Assembly: GCA_015492245.1 (NCBI GenBank)
Contig: WGFM01000009.1
Location: 1 to 59,558, forward strand
DNA from: Deltaproteobacteria bacterium
Lineage (GTDB): Bacteria; Desulfobacterota; GWC2-55-46; DRQE01
Direction: 5' to 3'
Length of the DNA: 59,558 nt
Positions 7,342-59,558 of this stretch are shown here, in pieces; positions within the stretch are counted from its first letter, which is position 1; each line of letters begins with the position of its first letter. The notes under the pieces were generated by a model. The model saw only the letters and a program-made list of their open reading frames with translations, was not told the origin of the DNA and did not search any database. A program made the position numbers and the translations under genes.

Positions 7342-8673
7342 ATGAAAAAAACCCTTCTTCTACTCCTCATAGCCACACTACTGGCCACCCCTTCTTACGC
7401 AGAGATGCCCTTTGGCAAGAACAGAACCTTCGAATACACAATGTACTCCCACATACCCTACATAGAGGGCATACCAGACAAGGTTCTACCTGATACAGAA
7501 AGAAGGCCACCTCTGGTCTCTCATATACATGAGTATATAGTGTCTCCCGATGACAGTCCATTCAACGAGGTGCCTCCATTTCTTGAAAAGAGGGTAGAGT
7601 GGTTCATACGCTACTTTCAGACCACCGGCAGGCCACATTTTACACGGTGGCTCGAAAGAAGCTACCGCTATATACCATTCATAAAGGAAATATTGAGGGA
7701 GGAAGGCCTGCCAGAAGACCTTGCCTATCTTGCCCTCATAGAGAGCGGGTTCAATCCTCATGCGAAGTCTCCCAAGAATGCGGTGGGCATATGGCAGTTT
7801 CTTCCTGCCACAGGTAGAAGATACGGGCTCAGGATAGACTGGTGGGTGGATGAACGAAAGGACACGGAGAAGGCAACCCGTGCTGCGGCAACATACCTGC
7901 GGGCACTCTATGAAAGGTTTGGCTCCTGGTATCTTGCCATGGCAGGATACAACGCCGGTGAGGGCAGAATCTCGCGAGCAATAAGAAAACACAGAACAGT
8001 CAGGTTCGATAAGATAATCTCCAAAGGCCGCATAATAAAACGGGAGACCCGCAACTATATACCCAAATACATAGCCGCAACCATCATAGCAAAAGACCCT
8101 GAAAGGTTCGGCTTCGAGATACCAGAGGAGGTAACCCCCATTGCCTACGAGAAGGTAAAGATAAAGGGGTCCCTACCACTTTCCACCATTGCACGGGCCT
8201 GTGGAGTGAGTGTAAGGGAGATAAGACGGCTCAACCCCCATATTCGGCGCTGGTTCACACCACCTGATTACGCCATATACATACCCGAAGGCAGGGCACG
8301 GGAGTTTACAGACAAACTTGCAGAACTCGAGCCTGAAAGAATACATCTGCACAGGATAGGCCGTGGTGAGACCCTCTGGCAGATAGCAAGAACCTACAGG
8401 ATACCGGTAAGACCACTTCTTGTCGTCAACAACATAAAGAACCCGCGGCGCATAAGGGAAGGCACGGTTATAATGGTGCCCATAAGGGTTGCTCCAAAAC
8501 ACTCGAGAAGGACCTATATAATAAAGAAGGGGGATACCCTGTGGGATATATCGAGAAGGTTCGGCATAGAGGTGGAAGACATACTCAGATGGAACAGGCT
8601 ACCAAGTGCCGACATGATACGGCCAGGCCAGAAGCTATACATTGGAGGTATAGATAATGTTCACAACAGTTGA
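7342..8673 (+). CDS. mltD: MltD-like lytic murein transglycosylase with LysM domains
   Basis: This 443-residue protein has a signal peptide (KKTLLLLLIATLLATPSYA). Its SLT domain (residues about 110-250) has the catalytic Glu134 in ALIESGFNPHA, plus GIWQFLPATGRRYGL and MAGYNAGEGRI. Three LysM-like repeats follow: a degenerate one near 275-320, and clear ones near 331-375 (GETLWQIARTYRI) and 392-436 (GDTLWDISRRFGI). It cleaves peptidoglycan glycan strands with anhydro-muramic acid formation, bound to the wall through LysM. There is no lipobox, unlike E. coli MltD. Its end overlaps the mtnA start by 17 bases. Confidence 0.93.
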   Translation: MKKTLLLLLIATLLATPSYAEMPFGKNRTFEYTMYSHIPYIEGIPDKVLPDTERRPPLVSHIHEYIVSPDDSPFNEVPPFLEKRVEWFIRYFQTTGRPHFTRWLERSYRYIPFIKEILREEGLPEDLAYLALIESGFNPHAKSPKNAVGIWQFLPATGRRYGLRIDWWVDERKDTEKATRAAATYLRALYERFGSWYLAMAGYNAGEGRISRAIRKHRTVRFDKIISKGRIIKRETRNYIPKYIAATIIAKDPERFGFEIPEEVTPIAYEKVKIKGSLPLSTIARACGVSVREIRRLNPHIRRWFTPPDYAIYIPEGRAREFTDKLAELEPERIHLHRIGRGETLWQIARTYRIPVRPLLVVNNIKNPRRIREGTVIMVPIRVAPKHSRRTYIIKKGDTLWDISRRFGIEVEDILRWNRLPSADMIRPGQKLYIGGIDNVHNS

Positions 8674-12498: not shown

Positions 12499-13979
12499 GC
12501 CTTCATGTGATGAGAAGAAAGAACAAGACATATCCGAGGCTTGTGTGGAACCAGAAAGATGGCACAGGCCATCTTACCCCACCTCTGCAGAGACTCAAAG
12601 AATACATCCATACACACAATGGACAGGAAGAGCTGGCCAACCGAATTATCCATGGTAACAACCTTTCTGCAATGGAACTCCTCCTCGAAGAGGGATACAG
12701 AGAGCAGGTGAAACTCATCTACATGGACCCACCCTTTCTCTCTGACTCTCGCTATTACAGAAAGATAAGGCTTAAGGAAGGTTTATCCATAAAGGAGACA
12801 ACCTACCCTGATACCTCAGATATGTGCTCCTACCTGGACATGCTCAAAGAGAGGCTCGTTGCTGCAAGAAGGCTTCTCAGAGAGGATGGCCTCATATTCG
12901 TCCACTGCGACTGGCGTGCCAACTCCTACATAAGAGTACTCATGGACGAGGTGTTTGGACACCCCAACTTCCTCAACGAGATTGTCTGGCACTACGGTGG
13001 CAGGGGTGCAAAGCATGTATCAGCCCAGTTCCCCAGAAACCACGATACCATATATGTATACAGAAAGAGCAACAAGGGCTCGCTTAAAAAACTCCACACC
13101 GAAGTGCTGATACCACTGGAGGAGGCACTTTCGCGTGGCTACAGGCTCGATGAGGCCGGAAGGGTCTTCAAAACGGCACCACGGGGCGATTACACTGAAG
13201 AGAGCATAAAAAGACTTGCCCGTGAGGACAGGGTTTACATAACAAAGAGAGGCAATGTGAGGATAAAATACTTCCTCCAGGTGCGTGATGGATATGTGGT
13301 GGAAAGGCCCCTCCTTGGTGATGTATGGGACGACATACCCGATGCCATGCATACTCCTTATGAGGAGAGGACAGGTTATGCAACCCAGAAGCCCCTGAGT
13401 CTTATTGAGCGCATAATAGGATGCGCCTCAGAAGAGGGTGATCTTGTGCTCGACCCCTTCGGAGGCTCTGGCACCACCGCCGTGGCATCAGAAAGGCTGG
13501 GGCGCCGCTGGATACTATGCGAGAAAAGTCCTCATGGAATAGGTGTTACGAGAAAAAGGCTTGTGGCCATGGGAGCAGGCCCCTTTGTTGTGGAAAGGCT
13601 CGTTGAAGACGGCCACCAGCAGGGTGCCACCGCTGATGCCTCCTTTCTTGTGCCACCAGTTGTAAGAGAGCTCGATGGAGAAAGACTCGAAGTATCCATA
13701 GGGCTTAATGGCTACAGAAAGGAGGAGGCGCTTCCAGAGGGGCTTTCAGAAAAGGAGGCACACCTTACAGTAGACTACTGGGCTGTTGACTGGAACCACG
13801 ATGGAAAAAGATTCAGAACAGGATGGTTATCGTTGCGTGAAGACAGGGGCACCATAAAACCTGTTGAAAAGAGGGCCACAGGGGTGGTAAAAAAGAATAC
13901 AGAACGGATTGCCATAAAGGTGGTAGATGTCTTCGGCAACGAGACAGACTGGGTGCTAAACCTCAAGGAAGCCACATGA
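12495..13979 (+). CDS. Mod-like DNA methyltransferase (beta class), no nuclease partner seen
   Basis: This 494-residue protein has catalytic motif IV DPPF (residues 78-81) before the SAM-binding motif DPFGGSGTT (320-328), the beta-class order of type III Mod and N4C/N6A methylases. A target-recognition segment lies between them. The C-terminal 120 residues (VDYWAVDWNHDGKRFRTGW) form a separate extension. The start is uncertain: TTG 12495 overlaps the ntrC stop, and ATG 12510 is the alternative. No res or restriction gene is adjacent, so it may be a solitary epigenetic methylase. Its stop overlaps the RNA ligase partner start (ATGA). Confidence 0.87.
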   Translation: MSLHVMRRKNKTYPRLVWNQKDGTGHLTPPLQRLKEYIHTHNGQEELANRIIHGNNLSAMELLLEEGYREQVKLIYMDPPFLSDSRYYRKIRLKEGLSIKETTYPDTSDMCSYLDMLKERLVAARRLLREDGLIFVHCDWRANSYIRVLMDEVFGHPNFLNEIVWHYGGRGAKHVSAQFPRNHDTIYVYRKSNKGSLKKLHTEVLIPLEEALSRGYRLDEAGRVFKTAPRGDYTEESIKRLAREDRVYITKRGNVRIKYFLQVRDGYVVERPLLGDVWDDIPDAMHTPYEERTGYATQKPLSLIERIIGCASEEGDLVLDPFGGSGTTAVASERLGRRWILCEKSPHGIGVTRKRLVAMGAGPFVVERLVEDGHQQGATADASFLVPPVVRELDGERLEVSIGLNGYRKEEALPEGLSEKEAHLTVDYWAVDWNHDGKRFRTGWLSLREDRGTIKPVEKRATGVVKKNTERIAIKVVDVFGNETDWVLNLKEAT

Positions 13980-55415: not shown

Positions 55416-57761
55416 TCAGTAATCGTAGGTTGCGTATGTATCGAAGGAGCCACCACTGTTATTGGTGCAGTCGTTGAAGTTCGAGTTGCCGCCGTTCTTT
55501 CCACATCTACCCCTTCCGGCGGTGGAACCGAACCTCACCCCGTCCCATGCCGTTCCGTTGATGAGTCTGTTGCTCGATGGCGTTATTATGGAGACATCGT
55601 AGCTGAAACCAGGTGCCCCGTTGTTTCCGTGTATACCCCCGACTGTGCCACCACCATGGCATCTCATGCACACGATACCCCTGGGTGAGTCTCCGGCGGA
55701 CCTGCTCACATCGGCCGAGGCAAAGCTCAGCCCCCTTCCTTCCATACCCATACCTCCACAGTCTCCATCGGCGGGATGGGGCTGGCGTGAAAGGTAGCGG
55801 TAGCGTGGATACCTGTCGTCTCCACAGTTCCAGCTGCCCGTTGTACTGCCCTGGTCGAGGAAACCATAGACATCTGCCCTGTGGCAGTTGAGACACAGGT
55901 TGTTCGGATCGAACTGTCCAAGGTTAACGCATTGCACGCCGTAAGAATCCGTTGTGGATGACGCCCATGCCTGGTCAAAGCATGAATAGCTCACCGTGTA
56001 AGGGCCTGTACCATTTCCATCGTAGCCGTCGTCCAGTATGGTGTATGTTATTGAGGTATCAAGTTTTCTCAGTATAAAGGGCTGTGCCGAGCCATGTGGT
56101 CCACGGGGGTCGGTCTCGTTTTCGCTTTCATGGCAGTCCACGCAGGTAACAAAGTTGTCATGTCTCCATGGTGGAACGAATGTGTTGGCAAAACCGATGG
56201 TGGTATCGATCACCCCTGTGGGACGATTCGAGTCCTCACTACCACCGCTCACAGGGGTACAGGTGCTATCGAGCCTTGTCCTCGTCCATCGACAGTTGGC
56301 GTTCGATGGCGGCTGGTTTCTTCCAGGACCGAACACAGGGTGATAACCCTTTGGGGGCGTATCTCCCGTGGTCATCGCAAAGTCCTGTGCCACATCGGTA
56401 AGGTACATCGGCTGGGTATCACCTATGGAGAAGTGGTAGTCATCGGCATCACCTGCGCTGCCATCTGTGGCATCCCATCTCCTGCGATTCTCCCATGAAG
56501 GTGCAAGCCTTGTTGTAATAGCAGAGTCTCCAAAGCTGGAATGGCACTTGAGGCACAACTCATAGAGGTATACACTCGAGTAGCTCTGTGTGGAAGAGGA
56601 TGTGTCGTCAACCCTGCCTGTGATAGTGCCTGTTACAGTATCAACACTCACTCCCCATACCCCCTTGTTTGCACCACCCGCGTATATGCCATCGGTGCCC
56701 GCAACCCTGTCAGGATTGATCGTTGTGGTGCCACTTTCCTGAAACACCGTGCCAGATTGGGCTACATGTGGATTGTGGCAATCAACACACTCCACATGGC
56801 GAAGATCAGGATATGCATTCCACCCCTGAGCCGGACTCTCCTCGTTCTTGAGCGAGTGCCTGCCAGAGAAGGGATTGGTGGTGCCACCAAGTTGATCCAC
56901 ATCGTGCACAGGATGTCCACTGCCTGTAACACCGTATGCACCCTCAAGTTTTGCAAGCTGTGTCCTTATATCGAGTGCCTGGGAAAGTCCACCCTCTCCG
57001 ACAGCCCTGTGGCAATTCTCACACAATGCCTCCTCCCAGGCTATAAGCTGGCGAGGAATGAGATAATCCTTCGAAACATCGGGATTGTTCGTAGAAAGGT
57101 GTTTTGTGGCAGGCACAGCCCAGGTATCATATTCACCTCCTGGGGTCTCCAGTATGCCATGGGGAGTATGACAATTCAGACAGTGGCCAGCTGTTATGGT
57201 ATTCGTCCTGTCTGTCCTTGGCCATGGGGAGCCAGCCCCATAGCCAGGATTCTTCATGGTGGTGTTCAAGTAATGTCCACTCTGTTCGTAATGGGCCTTA
57301 CCCTGATAGAAACTGAACCTCCCATAGCCTTGTGGGCTTCCCGAGCCTCCTATGTTTGCCAGGCTCTCATGGCAGAACCAGCAGGCATTCGGATTGTCAT
57401 CGGATAGCACAAGATAGGGATTGGGCCCACCCCCCACATCTCCATCTACACCGGAGTTCGGGGCCGGCTCTGAGCCACCGAAGCTTGCATGGGGCTCATG
57501 GCAGTGGACACACTCACCACCCCTGTATTTGCCACCCTCCACCGTTGCATCGTTGTAATAGTTTGTAAAGGCAGGGTTTACTGATCTGTCCACCCCGGGC
57601 CCATTTCCAGCGTCATAGGGAAGAGCACCATCGGTGGTGCCACCACCGTGCTTGGTGAAAGGAAAGGCCCCACCTGTGGCGTATACAAAGAAAGAAGTTC
57701 CCACCAGATAGACGAAGAGGGAGATAATCAGCGCTCTTCTGAAAACATTCTTCAGTCCCAT
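55416..57761 (-). CDS. secreted nonaheme c-type cytochrome
   Basis: This 781-residue protein has a signal peptide (LKNVFRRALIISLFVYLVGTSFFVYA). ATG 57761 is chosen because 25 upstream in-frame codons have no signal character and overlap the promoter. I count nine CxxCH heme sites: CVHCH, CWFCH, CLNCH, CENCH, CVDCH, CLKCH, CVDCH, CLNCH and CMRCH. Most are followed by Pro-His or a second His nearby, as in doubled-CxxCH proteins. Long Gly/Asn/Thr-rich linkers lie between them. It probably sits in the periplasm or on the outer surface and takes part in electron transfer to an external acceptor. Confidence 0.92.
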   Translation of the reverse strand: MGLKNVFRRALIISLFVYLVGTSFFVYATGGAFPFTKHGGGTTDGALPYDAGNGPGVDRSVNPAFTNYYNDATVEGGKYRGGECVHCHEPHASFGGSEPAPNSGVDGDVGGGPNPYLVLSDDNPNACWFCHESLANIGGSGSPQGYGRFSFYQGKAHYEQSGHYLNTTMKNPGYGAGSPWPRTDRTNTITAGHCLNCHTPHGILETPGGEYDTWAVPATKHLSTNNPDVSKDYLIPRQLIAWEEALCENCHRAVGEGGLSQALDIRTQLAKLEGAYGVTGSGHPVHDVDQLGGTTNPFSGRHSLKNEESPAQGWNAYPDLRHVECVDCHNPHVAQSGTVFQESGTTTINPDRVAGTDGIYAGGANKGVWGVSVDTVTGTITGRVDDTSSSTQSYSSVYLYELCLKCHSSFGDSAITTRLAPSWENRRRWDATDGSAGDADDYHFSIGDTQPMYLTDVAQDFAMTTGDTPPKGYHPVFGPGRNQPPSNANCRWTRTRLDSTCTPVSGGSEDSNRPTGVIDTTIGFANTFVPPWRHDNFVTCVDCHESENETDPRGPHGSAQPFILRKLDTSITYTILDDGYDGNGTGPYTVSYSCFDQAWASSTTDSYGVQCVNLGQFDPNNLCLNCHRADVYGFLDQGSTTGSWNCGDDRYPRYRYLSRQPHPADGDCGGMGMEGRGLSFASADVSRSAGDSPRGIVCMRCHGGGTVGGIHGNNGAPGFSYDVSIITPSSNRLINGTAWDGVRFGSTAGRGRCGKNGGNSNFNDCTNNSGGSFDTYATYDY

Positions 57762-57803
57762 AAATCCAGGCACCCCCTCCAGGGATAGATGGTTCACAAG
57801 AGT

Positions 57804-57832
57804 ATTATATATCTTAACAAAACTTATGTCTA
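57804..57832 (-). promoter_or_regulatory. promoter of the nonaheme cytochrome gene
   Basis: On the minus strand TAGACA (57832-57827), a 17-bp spacer and a perfect TATAAT (57809-57804). The leader to ATG 57761 is about 36 bases and includes GGAGGGGG. Confidence 0.75.
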
Positions 57833-57905
57833 CCATATATTACCCAAATGGACAAGACATCATGGATTCGACAACATATCCATAAGGGCAATCAATTTCT
57901 TCTTG

Positions 57906-58115: not shown

Positions 58116-58165
58116 AGACAAGAAAAAAGGTTACTCCAGAAGATGGGTAACCCTCCTTAACCCTC

Positions 58166-58210
58166 TGGTGCCCAGGGACGGAATCGAACCGCCGACACGA
58201 GGATTTTCAG
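58166..58210 (-). repeat. 3' fragment of tRNA-Phe (attachment-site remnant)
   Basis: Read on the minus strand, these 45 bases match the tRNA-Phe 3' half from the anticodon loop (CTGAAAA, anticodon GAA) through GTTCGATTC to the encoded CCA. The 5' half is absent: the bases before CTGAAAA cannot pair with the TCCTC anticodon stem. This is the scar left when an element integrates into a tRNA gene by recombination in the anticodon region. The intact tRNA-Phe should stand at the other end of the element, outside the window. Confidence 0.88.
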
Positions 58211-58298
58211 CTCGGAAAGACAAAAAATCATAAGGGCTCTGTTTTCGGTCTGGCTTCCTCTTTTTCTTTTAAAATAAATAAGTTATGGGCTTTCCAAT

Positions 58299-58330
58299 GA
58301 TTCCACCTGTTCCTATGGATTCCATCTATT
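58299..58330. repeat. two 13-bp direct repeats near the att fragment
   Basis: GATTCCACCTGTT (58299-58311) and GATTCCATCTATT (58318-58330) agree at 11 of 13 positions and are spaced 19 bp apart. Directly repeated short sites beside a tRNA att core are typical recombinase arm-binding sites, which is the likely role here. Confidence 0.45.
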
Positions 58331-58341
58331 TTGATGGTTTC

Positions 58342-58359
58342 TGGCACAATTTTGGCACA
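58342..58359. repeat. tandem TGGCACA repeats, 11 bp apart
   Basis: TGGCACA occurs at 58342-58348 and again at 58353-58359, spaced one helical turn apart. It may be a further recombinase or excisionase arm site. It also resembles a sigma-54 element (TGGCAC to GC spacing) by chance. Confidence 0.4.
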
Positions 58360-58415
58360 GTTGGGTGGGGTGCAGTCCTCTGTGGAGACAGTCTGGATTG
58401 TTGCACAGGTGCTTC

Positions 58416-58460
58416 TTGACAGAGACATCTTGTGGTGATACAATGTCTATACAAAGTATA
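58416..58460 (+). promoter_or_regulatory. promoter and operator-like palindrome of the AbrB/Doc pair
   Basis: TTGACA (58416-58421), a 17-bp spacer and TACAAT (58439-58444), close to consensus. The perfect palindrome TATAC-AAA-GTATA (58448-58460) covers the expected transcription start. Antitoxins of the AbrB/MazE fold bind such sites, so autorepression is likely. Confidence 0.75.
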
Positions 58461-58476
58461 CCTATCGGGGACTACC

Positions 58477-58704
58477 ATGATAAAAAAGCTGACCAAACAC
58501 GGCAACTCTCTGGCGCTTGTAATAGACAAAGCGGTGCTCGAGCTTCTCGATATTGATGAGAAAACTCCTCTTGATATTTCAACAGATGGCAGGATACTCC
58601 TGATCTCACCTGTAAGGGACAGGAAAAGACAGAAGAAGTTTCAGGAAGCACTCGAGAAGGCCAACAAAAGATACGGCCGTGCACTGAAGAGGCTTGCGGA
58701 TTGA
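58477..58704 (+). CDS. AbrB/MazE-fold antitoxin
   Basis: This 75-residue protein has an N-terminal swapped-hairpin DNA-binding domain (IKKLTKHGNSLALVIDKAVL, then LDISTDGRILLISPV) and a basic helical tail (about 45-75) that should wrap the toxin. I start at ATG 58477, where the family begins, and the palindrome lies just upstream. The stop overlaps the toxin start (TTGA). It pairs an AbrB-type antitoxin with a Doc toxin in place of Phd, a combination known in other bacteria. Confidence 0.88.
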   Translation: MIKKLTKHGNSLALVIDKAVLELLDIDEKTPLDISTDGRILLISPVRDRKRQKKFQEALEKANKRYGRALKRLAD

Positions 58705-59099
58705 AGGAGCCTGTCTTTCTCAGTCTCGACGAGGTCATCCATATCCATCGCGACCAGATAGAACGGTATGGTGGCGAGCCTGGCATTCGCGATATGGAGT
58801 TGTTGCAATCTGCTGTGGCAATGCCCGGGGCTGGCGTTGGCAAAGAGTATGTCCATACAGATATCTACGAGATGGCCGCCGCATATCTATTCCACATCAT
58901 AGGGAACCATCCATTCATTGACGGGAATAAACGGACTGGCGCTGTAGCAACGGTGGTGTTTCTTATGATGAATGGGATAGAGCTCCGTGCAGACGAAAGA
59001 GGCTTCGAGGCCATGGTGCGTTCTGTAGCAGAAGGCAGGATGAAGAAGACAGAGATTGCCGAATTCCTGAGAAAACACTCTACAAAGATCAAGGAATAG
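58701..59099 (+). CDS. doc: Doc-type Fic-domain toxin
   Basis: This 132-residue protein has the Fic/Doc active site HPFIDGNKRTG, with the catalytic His and the phosphate-binding GNKR, preceded by AAAYLFHIIGN. The N-terminus LSLDEVIHIHRDQIERYGGE is typical of death-on-curing proteins. Doc phosphorylates EF-Tu in characterised cases, and other Fic proteins add AMP. The start is TTG 58701, overlapping the antitoxin stop. Full length, no damage seen. Confidence 0.92.
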   Translation: MKEPVFLSLDEVIHIHRDQIERYGGEPGIRDMELLQSAVAMPGAGVGKEYVHTDIYEMAAAYLFHIIGNHPFIDGNKRTGAVATVVFLMMNGIELRADERGFEAMVRSVAEGRMKKTEIAEFLRKHSTKIKE

Positions 59100-59297
59100 G
59101 AGGATTACCTTCTGGACTGCATCAGATGCAAATTATGATAAAGGGTTTCAAACACCCTTCAAAAGGCAGGGCTTGTGGAACTAAAAACGGTAAAGGCAGA
59201 AAAAGAGACCATCCCCTCTGTTAACAACGATAACATCAAATTGATATTGCAGAAAAGCCTAACCTGATATGACAACCATCCATCTTGAGTAAAAAAC
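59100..59297. other. 198-bp region with possible remnant coding sequence
   Basis: A plus-strand frame of about 40 codons (TLQKAGLVELKTVKAEKETI) ends at a TGA near 59268 but has no good start and no recognised family. It is probably residue of the same decaying element. Confidence 0.3.
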
Positions 59298-59558
59298 ATG
59301 GATAGGAAAACACGCCGTATGGGCACAGGAAAACTGGTTAAGGGAATAAAGATTACAAGACAGATGCATGAGCGGGCACCGAATGTGCACTTTATCCCAT
59401 ATGGTTCAGATAAAACAAGTGCACATCTGCGAACCTGGTAGCTGTCGCCTAACCTCTATAAGGTCCAGAGGTTCCTTGGGCACAAGACCCCTGTTATGAC
59501 CCAGCGATATGCCCATCACTATTCAGAAAGTCTCAGGGATGGGGTTGAGGCTTTAGAG
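59298..59558 (+). pseudogene. tyrosine recombinase (integrase) C-terminal remnant, runs off the window
   Basis: A frame from ATG 59298 has an in-frame TAG at 59439-59441 and then continues to the window end. After the stop it reads LYKVQRFLGHKTPVMTQRYAHHYSES, the core of the phage-integrase catalytic domain, with LGHK and, in MTQRYAHHY, the catalytic Tyr. The upstream box that should read HDLRHT is degraded (SDKTSAHLRTW). The N-terminal domains are missing. It matches the tRNA-Phe fragment as the former integrase of this element, now inactive. Confidence 0.82.

Follow-up and report, generated by a model that had tools for sequence, protein, structure and literature searches.

A probable deletion relic of a tRNA-targeting integrative element, with an open mazE-doc pair, beside tRNA-Phe in a deltaproteobacterium

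What lies at the end of this contig: the edge of an island that runs on into other sequence, or something small and nearly complete? An initial annotation described the end of a tRNA-Phe-integrated island that continues past the available sequence, with a toxin-antitoxin pair and a dead integrase. Here we follow the locus across the contig end, into related genomes, and through its individual features, and then weigh what kind of element it represents.

Extent of the element and its empty site

The window, meaning the whole stretch of DNA analysed (59,558 nucleotides), is the whole of contig C9 in a 1.88 Mb genome of 35 contigs, with completeness given as 100. The terminal 151 bases of C9 are the terminal 151 bases of contig C16, reversed; this stretch is present at these two ends only, with no other copy in the genome. 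All 35 contigs (70 ends) were compared with one another by their terminal 600 bases, with a ceiling of 500 bases on the overlap. Below that ceiling there are 14 overlapping pairs, and 11 of the 14 overlap by exactly 151 bases—hence 151 is the overlap between neighbouring contigs in this assembly (contig C18 with itself forms a fifteenth row, at the ceiling, outside the count of 14). The junction from C12 to C5 has two alternatives, through C10 or C11; at the C9-C16 junction, neither contig has another exact end partner in the 35-contig comparison. The join of C9 and C16 thus rests on contig-end overlap.

In the joined sequence, an intact tRNA-Phe(gaa) is found by ARAGORN at 59647-59722 on the minus strand, on C16; it was predicted to lie on the far side, and it is there past the contig end with the same 3' 47 bases. 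The exact direct repeat (47/47 identical) occupies 58164-58210 and joined 59645-59691, the latter inside the intact tRNA-Phe. The tRNA-Phe fragment is bounded in the anticodon loop, as first described; its exact copy measures 47 bp, not the 45 bp originally given. The repeat-to-repeat distance is 1,481 bp and the interior is 1,434 bp, of which 86 bp extend beyond the window edge. The view that only the end of a longer island had been captured is not supported: nearly the whole element is in the window, the second repeat follows 86 bp on, and the total is 1,481 bp. The interior has a G+C content of 46%, against 52% in the 8 kb to the left of the element. Just left of the element, beyond one small frame, lies a gene for an 806-aa protein with many CxxCH motifs (55416-57836, minus strand), which we take from the motif to be a multihaem cytochrome.

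An empty site is found in G001, the sole same-genus genome compared (92% complete). Its contig C168, with the left-flank gene at the end, stops 30 bases past a 78%-identical copy of the element's left-flank stretch; its contig C45 starts, reading inward, 34 bases before tRNA-Phe and continues into the aconitase-like gene that is found on C16 here. The two contig ends overlap by 27 identical bases, unique to those ends. In G001 the left-flank gene therefore stands directly beside tRNA-Phe with no insert, a result that rests on the short 27-bp end overlap, and the genome has no Doc match, no integrase-tail match, and no separate tRNA-Phe fragment. Integration at tRNA-Phe, as originally proposed, is borne out by the 47-bp repeats, the intact tRNA-Phe, and this same-genus genome, which lacks the fragment. 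Joined in this way, both genomes have the same neighbours at tRNA-Phe, and this supports the join of C9 and C16.

Element ends and the integrase remnant

The features at the two ends of the element are as follows.

58164-58210, minus strand: tRNA-Phe 3' part in displaced position, forming the tRNA-distal attachment site; exact repeat of joined 59645-59691
58211-58360, plus strand: conserved element end, resembling the ends at a tRNA-Phe in genome G005 and at a tRNA-Met-like fragment on contig C35
58342-58359, plus strand: arm-type box pair TGGCACA, with boxes at 58342 and 58353, 11 bp apart
59100-59441, no strand assigned: degenerate stretch with stops in every forward frame, ending in TAG at 59439-59441
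59442-59558, plus strand: C-terminal remnant of a tyrosine integrase; the frame runs past the window to about joined 59639

Beginning with the tRNA-Phe fragment, the sequence of this end resembles a stretch of G005 that likewise starts with a tRNA-Phe fragment (75% identity over 197 bp), and a stretch of contig C35 in the same genome as the window, next to a tRNA-Met-like fragment (71% identity over 154 bp). This second copy (L007 5891-6029) is an element end of the same family, and the tRNA-Met-like fragment beside it is degenerate. The arm-like direct repeats of the initial annotation were recovered as two TGGCACA boxes with 11-bp spacing; the pair (TGGCACA-4-TGGCACA) lies 131 bases after the tRNA-Phe fragment. 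We surveyed ten tRNA-Phe 3' fragments, which come from 5 of the 39 genomes searched. Four of the ten (one each in the window's genome, G013, and G017, and G005a) carry an arm pair on the same strand, at 131 or 132 bases from the fragment; this arm pair is absent from the remaining six, which have different ends. As a background rate, 3.1% of random 260-bp windows contain a loose form of the pair somewhere along their length.

Four fragments have an element side without the CACA arm pair: L122 8623-8666, L136 1082-1125, L137 3092-3135, and L131 9229-9275. The first three, all from G005, have in common a different end with ACTATAC repeats, and this makes it probable that tRNA-Phe is also the target of a second type of integrase. 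Locus L122 (contig C79 of G005) holds tandem elements at one tRNA—tRNA-Phe 3' fragments at 873-916 and 8623-8666 precede an intact tRNA-Phe at 13581-13656. With genes named by eye, its 7.75 kb segment contains response regulators, a large repeat protein, an excisionase-like gene, and an integrase tail, and its 4.96 kb segment contains ABC exporter-like genes.

The integrase had been described as carrying a stop codon and a damaged catalytic box, but it is not a near-complete gene with such defects. A profile built from seven longer frames of related integrases, searched against 59100-59642, matches only at positions 310-355 of 363 (61.6 bits). The part in which most of the active site would lie is therefore gone, not merely damaged, and the remaining integrase consists of the last ~65 codons. 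An integrase interrupted by a single stop was rejected, as the profile search recovers the C-terminal tail alone. The stretch before the TAG had also been considered as an N-terminal integrase segment on a weak pairwise match (E 0.014), and this failed in the profile search, which gives -2.7 bits for the 59 residues that precede the TAG and up to 3.8 for shuffled versions. That the integrase is dead was correctly recognised—no sequence ahead of the TAG at 59439-59441 gives an integrase score. As to its source, the degenerate stretch (59100-59441) has no match among the fetched loci except itself and the shared contig-end overlap. With C-terminal profile positions only, the element has no complete integrase gene, and it therefore reads as a relic and not as a working element.

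Of the 39 genomes, 20 contain a match to the 39-aa tail after the TAG, the window's own genome among them. We compared it with the tails of 13 other loci, a subset of 40 rows of tail matches, and identities are 64-75%. An intact tRNA (Met, Asn, Ala, Leu, Gly, or Arg) lies near the tail at 11 of these 13 loci, its 3' end 72-115 bases from the end of the tail match, and at the other two (L122 and L192) a tRNA fragment comes next; the corresponding distance to the tRNA 3' end in the window element is 89 bases. Locus L191, fetched as the fourteenth, shows a weaker tail match without a tRNA and is outside the counts of 13. A box pair with 11-bp spacing is found at the end of the integrase gene, in the strict pattern in 7 of 14 tails (the window's included) and, by eye, as looser boxes with the same spacing in the other 7; the arm boxes are thus written into the last integrase codons. 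In the window element this second arm pair lies inside the remnant frame, at joined 59561. The same genome contains further integrase-tail remnants at L190 7232-7363 (contig C8), beside tRNA-Gly, and at L191 6714-6794 (contig C4), as well as a longer related integrase frame of 381 aa beside tRNA-Leu (L189, contig C21).

The mazE-doc pair and its relatives

The interior of the element is occupied by the following features.

58416-58444, plus strand: sigma-70-type promoter TTGACA-17-TACAAT, matching at 11 of 12 positions, with TG before the second hexamer
58438-58459, plus strand: 11-bp direct repeat, a possible operator, overlapping the -10 hexamer
58477-58704, plus strand: MazE/AbrB-type antitoxin (PF04014, TIGR02609), 75 aa from the ATG at 58477
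58701-59099, plus strand: Doc toxin, 132 aa, with a TTG start that overlaps the antitoxin stop and an intact HPFIDGNKR motif

The antitoxin scores 26.0 bits with PF04014, just above the cut-off of 24.7, and 33.9 bits with TIGR02609, below the cut-off of 55.9. The toxin scores 71.3 bits with TIGR01550 (cut-off 38.65), and its HPFIDGNKR is an intact Fic/Doc motif. The AbrB/Doc pair was therefore rightly named, with PF04014 and TIGR01550 above their cut-offs; both frames are open, and the pair is best read from its sequence as the sole intact cargo of the element, of a known toxin-antitoxin type. The consensus promoter reported for the pair is also present. The palindrome reported with it is weak (TATAC-AAA-GTATA, by eye) and is not conserved in relatives, and a search for inverted repeats of at least 8 bp gave none. 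The 11-bp direct repeat is the clearer feature, and it may serve as the operator. The -10 region is common to six of the eight pairs; the pairs of G016 and G027 do not have it.

Doc matches occur in 12 of 39 genomes, and in eight of these, the window's included, the match is at least 65% identical and has MazE directly upstream. The gene order is the same in the seven relatives, where the overlap of stop and start codons was seen by eye; there is no second Doc copy in the window's own genome. Named genomes with the nearest Doc relatives include those of Candidatus Magnetobacterium, Nitrospira, and a Thermodesulfovibrionales bacterium, alongside deltaproteobacteria and others. Against the seven relatives, pN/pS is 0.15-0.25 for MazE and 0.19-0.32 for Doc; since synonymous sites are saturated in most pairs and the history compared is mostly older than the relic, these values show descent from functional genes more than present selection.

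We also considered a recurrent "toxin-antitoxin at tRNA" element and rejected it, finding no such rule across the seven other genomes with close pairs. In G016, a close mazE-doc relative lies 271 bases past tRNA-Gln (L127 4965-5038 and 5309-5907), and a tRNA repeat on both sides of the pair was looked for without success. In G027, the pair lies 254 bases past a 21-base tRNA-Gln 3' match (L126 7554-7574 and 7828-8444). No tRNA 3' sequence was seen directly beside the pair in the other five genomes; a tRNA-Val lies ~1.3 kb from the pair in G007. Contig ends cut through several of the loci compared.

Origin of the relic and its place among known systems

The exact repeats, the intact tRNA, the empty site, the homologous ends and integrase tails elsewhere, and the open frames establish that an element of the arm-site type inserted at tRNA-Phe and that its integrase has been lost. 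By far the most probable account is that a tRNA-targeting integrative element has been reduced by deletion to a relic of 1,481 bp that resembles a cis-mobilizable element (CIME). A tyrosine integrase would have recombined the attachment site of the element with the 3' half of tRNA-Phe, restoring the tRNA at one end and displacing the original 3' half to the other (58164-58210). Later deletions would then have removed nearly all of the integrase and the cargo, leaving both attachment sites, both arm regions, ~65 integrase codons, and the mazE-doc pair. No larger version of the same element was seen, and so deletion, as opposed to arrival at a small size, is what we infer. The course of the deletions and any activity of the pair would have to be read in the same conditional way; with the integrase reduced to its C-terminal tail, the element could presumably no longer move by itself, in line with the initial annotation.

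It is improbable that this is instead a minimal non-autonomous element, still mobile through a related integrase acting in trans and with the pair as its sole cargo, even though the 47-bp repeats are identical, both arm pairs are present, and contig C21 carries the 381-aa integrase frame. Mobilisation by that frame was judged unlikely because the tRNA and the arm boxes differ—the C21 integrase is at tRNA-Leu with TATCACA boxes, and the element is at tRNA-Phe with TGGCACA boxes—and the genome has no second Doc copy; a recent insertion, with selection on the tRNA that one repeat belongs to, may be enough to explain the repeat identity. Were this unlikely version true, a 1.4-kb mobile cassette of two attachment sites, two arm pairs, and an addiction pair would be moved by integrases in trans and kept by its toxin, and the contig break in the integrase tail would mean that members of the population carry a different version. 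The break also bears on size: an assembler usually breaks where a k-mer also joins elsewhere, so a variant or a longer collapsed island has to be reckoned with. The 151-bp overlap would then hide two integrase-tail copies that flank a missing contig, and the element would be much larger, as in G005, where the repeats of tandem elements at this tRNA are spaced by 7.75 and 4.96 kb. We give this only a slight chance, given that the 151-base stretch is confined to two contig ends, that neither C9 nor C16 has another exact end partner at the junction, and that completeness is given as 100. Least credible by a wide margin is a tRNA fragment duplicated by chance or recombination beside an ordinary chromosomal toxin-antitoxin module: close relatives of the pair do lie away from tRNA 3' ends in five of the seven other genomes, but the exact 47-bp repeat, the empty site in G001, and an integrase tail and two arm pairs positioned as in other elements all stand against it, and the conserved arm-to-fragment spacing already disfavours it.

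The deletion relic is ordinary in kind, and nothing about it is categorically new. It illustrates cleanly how much an integrated element can lose while its toxin-antitoxin pair is still open, and a sister genome supplies the empty site. More widely, it suggests that one bacterial order carries a family of tRNA-targeting elements whose end structure is fixed: at one end an arm pair lies 131-132 bp from the tRNA fragment, and at the other an arm pair is contained in the last integrase codons. Remnants of the family should therefore be easy to find.

Among known systems, CIMEs, as characterised in PMC5704250, have lost their integration and transfer genes and kept attL and attR. The window element likewise keeps both attachment sites and has lost its integrase, and its position is the 3' end of a tRNA at which related elements stand in tandem in G005. 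It differs from CIMEs in measuring only 1.48 kb, and any CIME-style mobility would be putative here; the open frames of the 1,434-bp interior include no transfer genes, and the ancestry could be phage or island. The pair itself resembles TasA-TasB, presented in PMC1626090 as a composite mazE-doc toxin-antitoxin system, in joining a MazE/AbrB-type antitoxin to a Doc-like toxin; that system was described from a plasmid, whereas the window pair lies in a chromosomal relic and its toxicity is predicted. By its arrangement, the locus also recalls SXT, whose MosAT pair, according to the account in PMC2654960, promotes maintenance of the element when SXT is excised: in both cases a toxin-antitoxin pair lies within a site-specifically integrated element. 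Growth arrest of cells that lose the element may be a reason for the persistence of the pair here; SXT excises, however, and excision of the relic is improbable, so that a role of this kind may be idle, and the pair may now be domesticated or may protect only against deletion of its own DNA.
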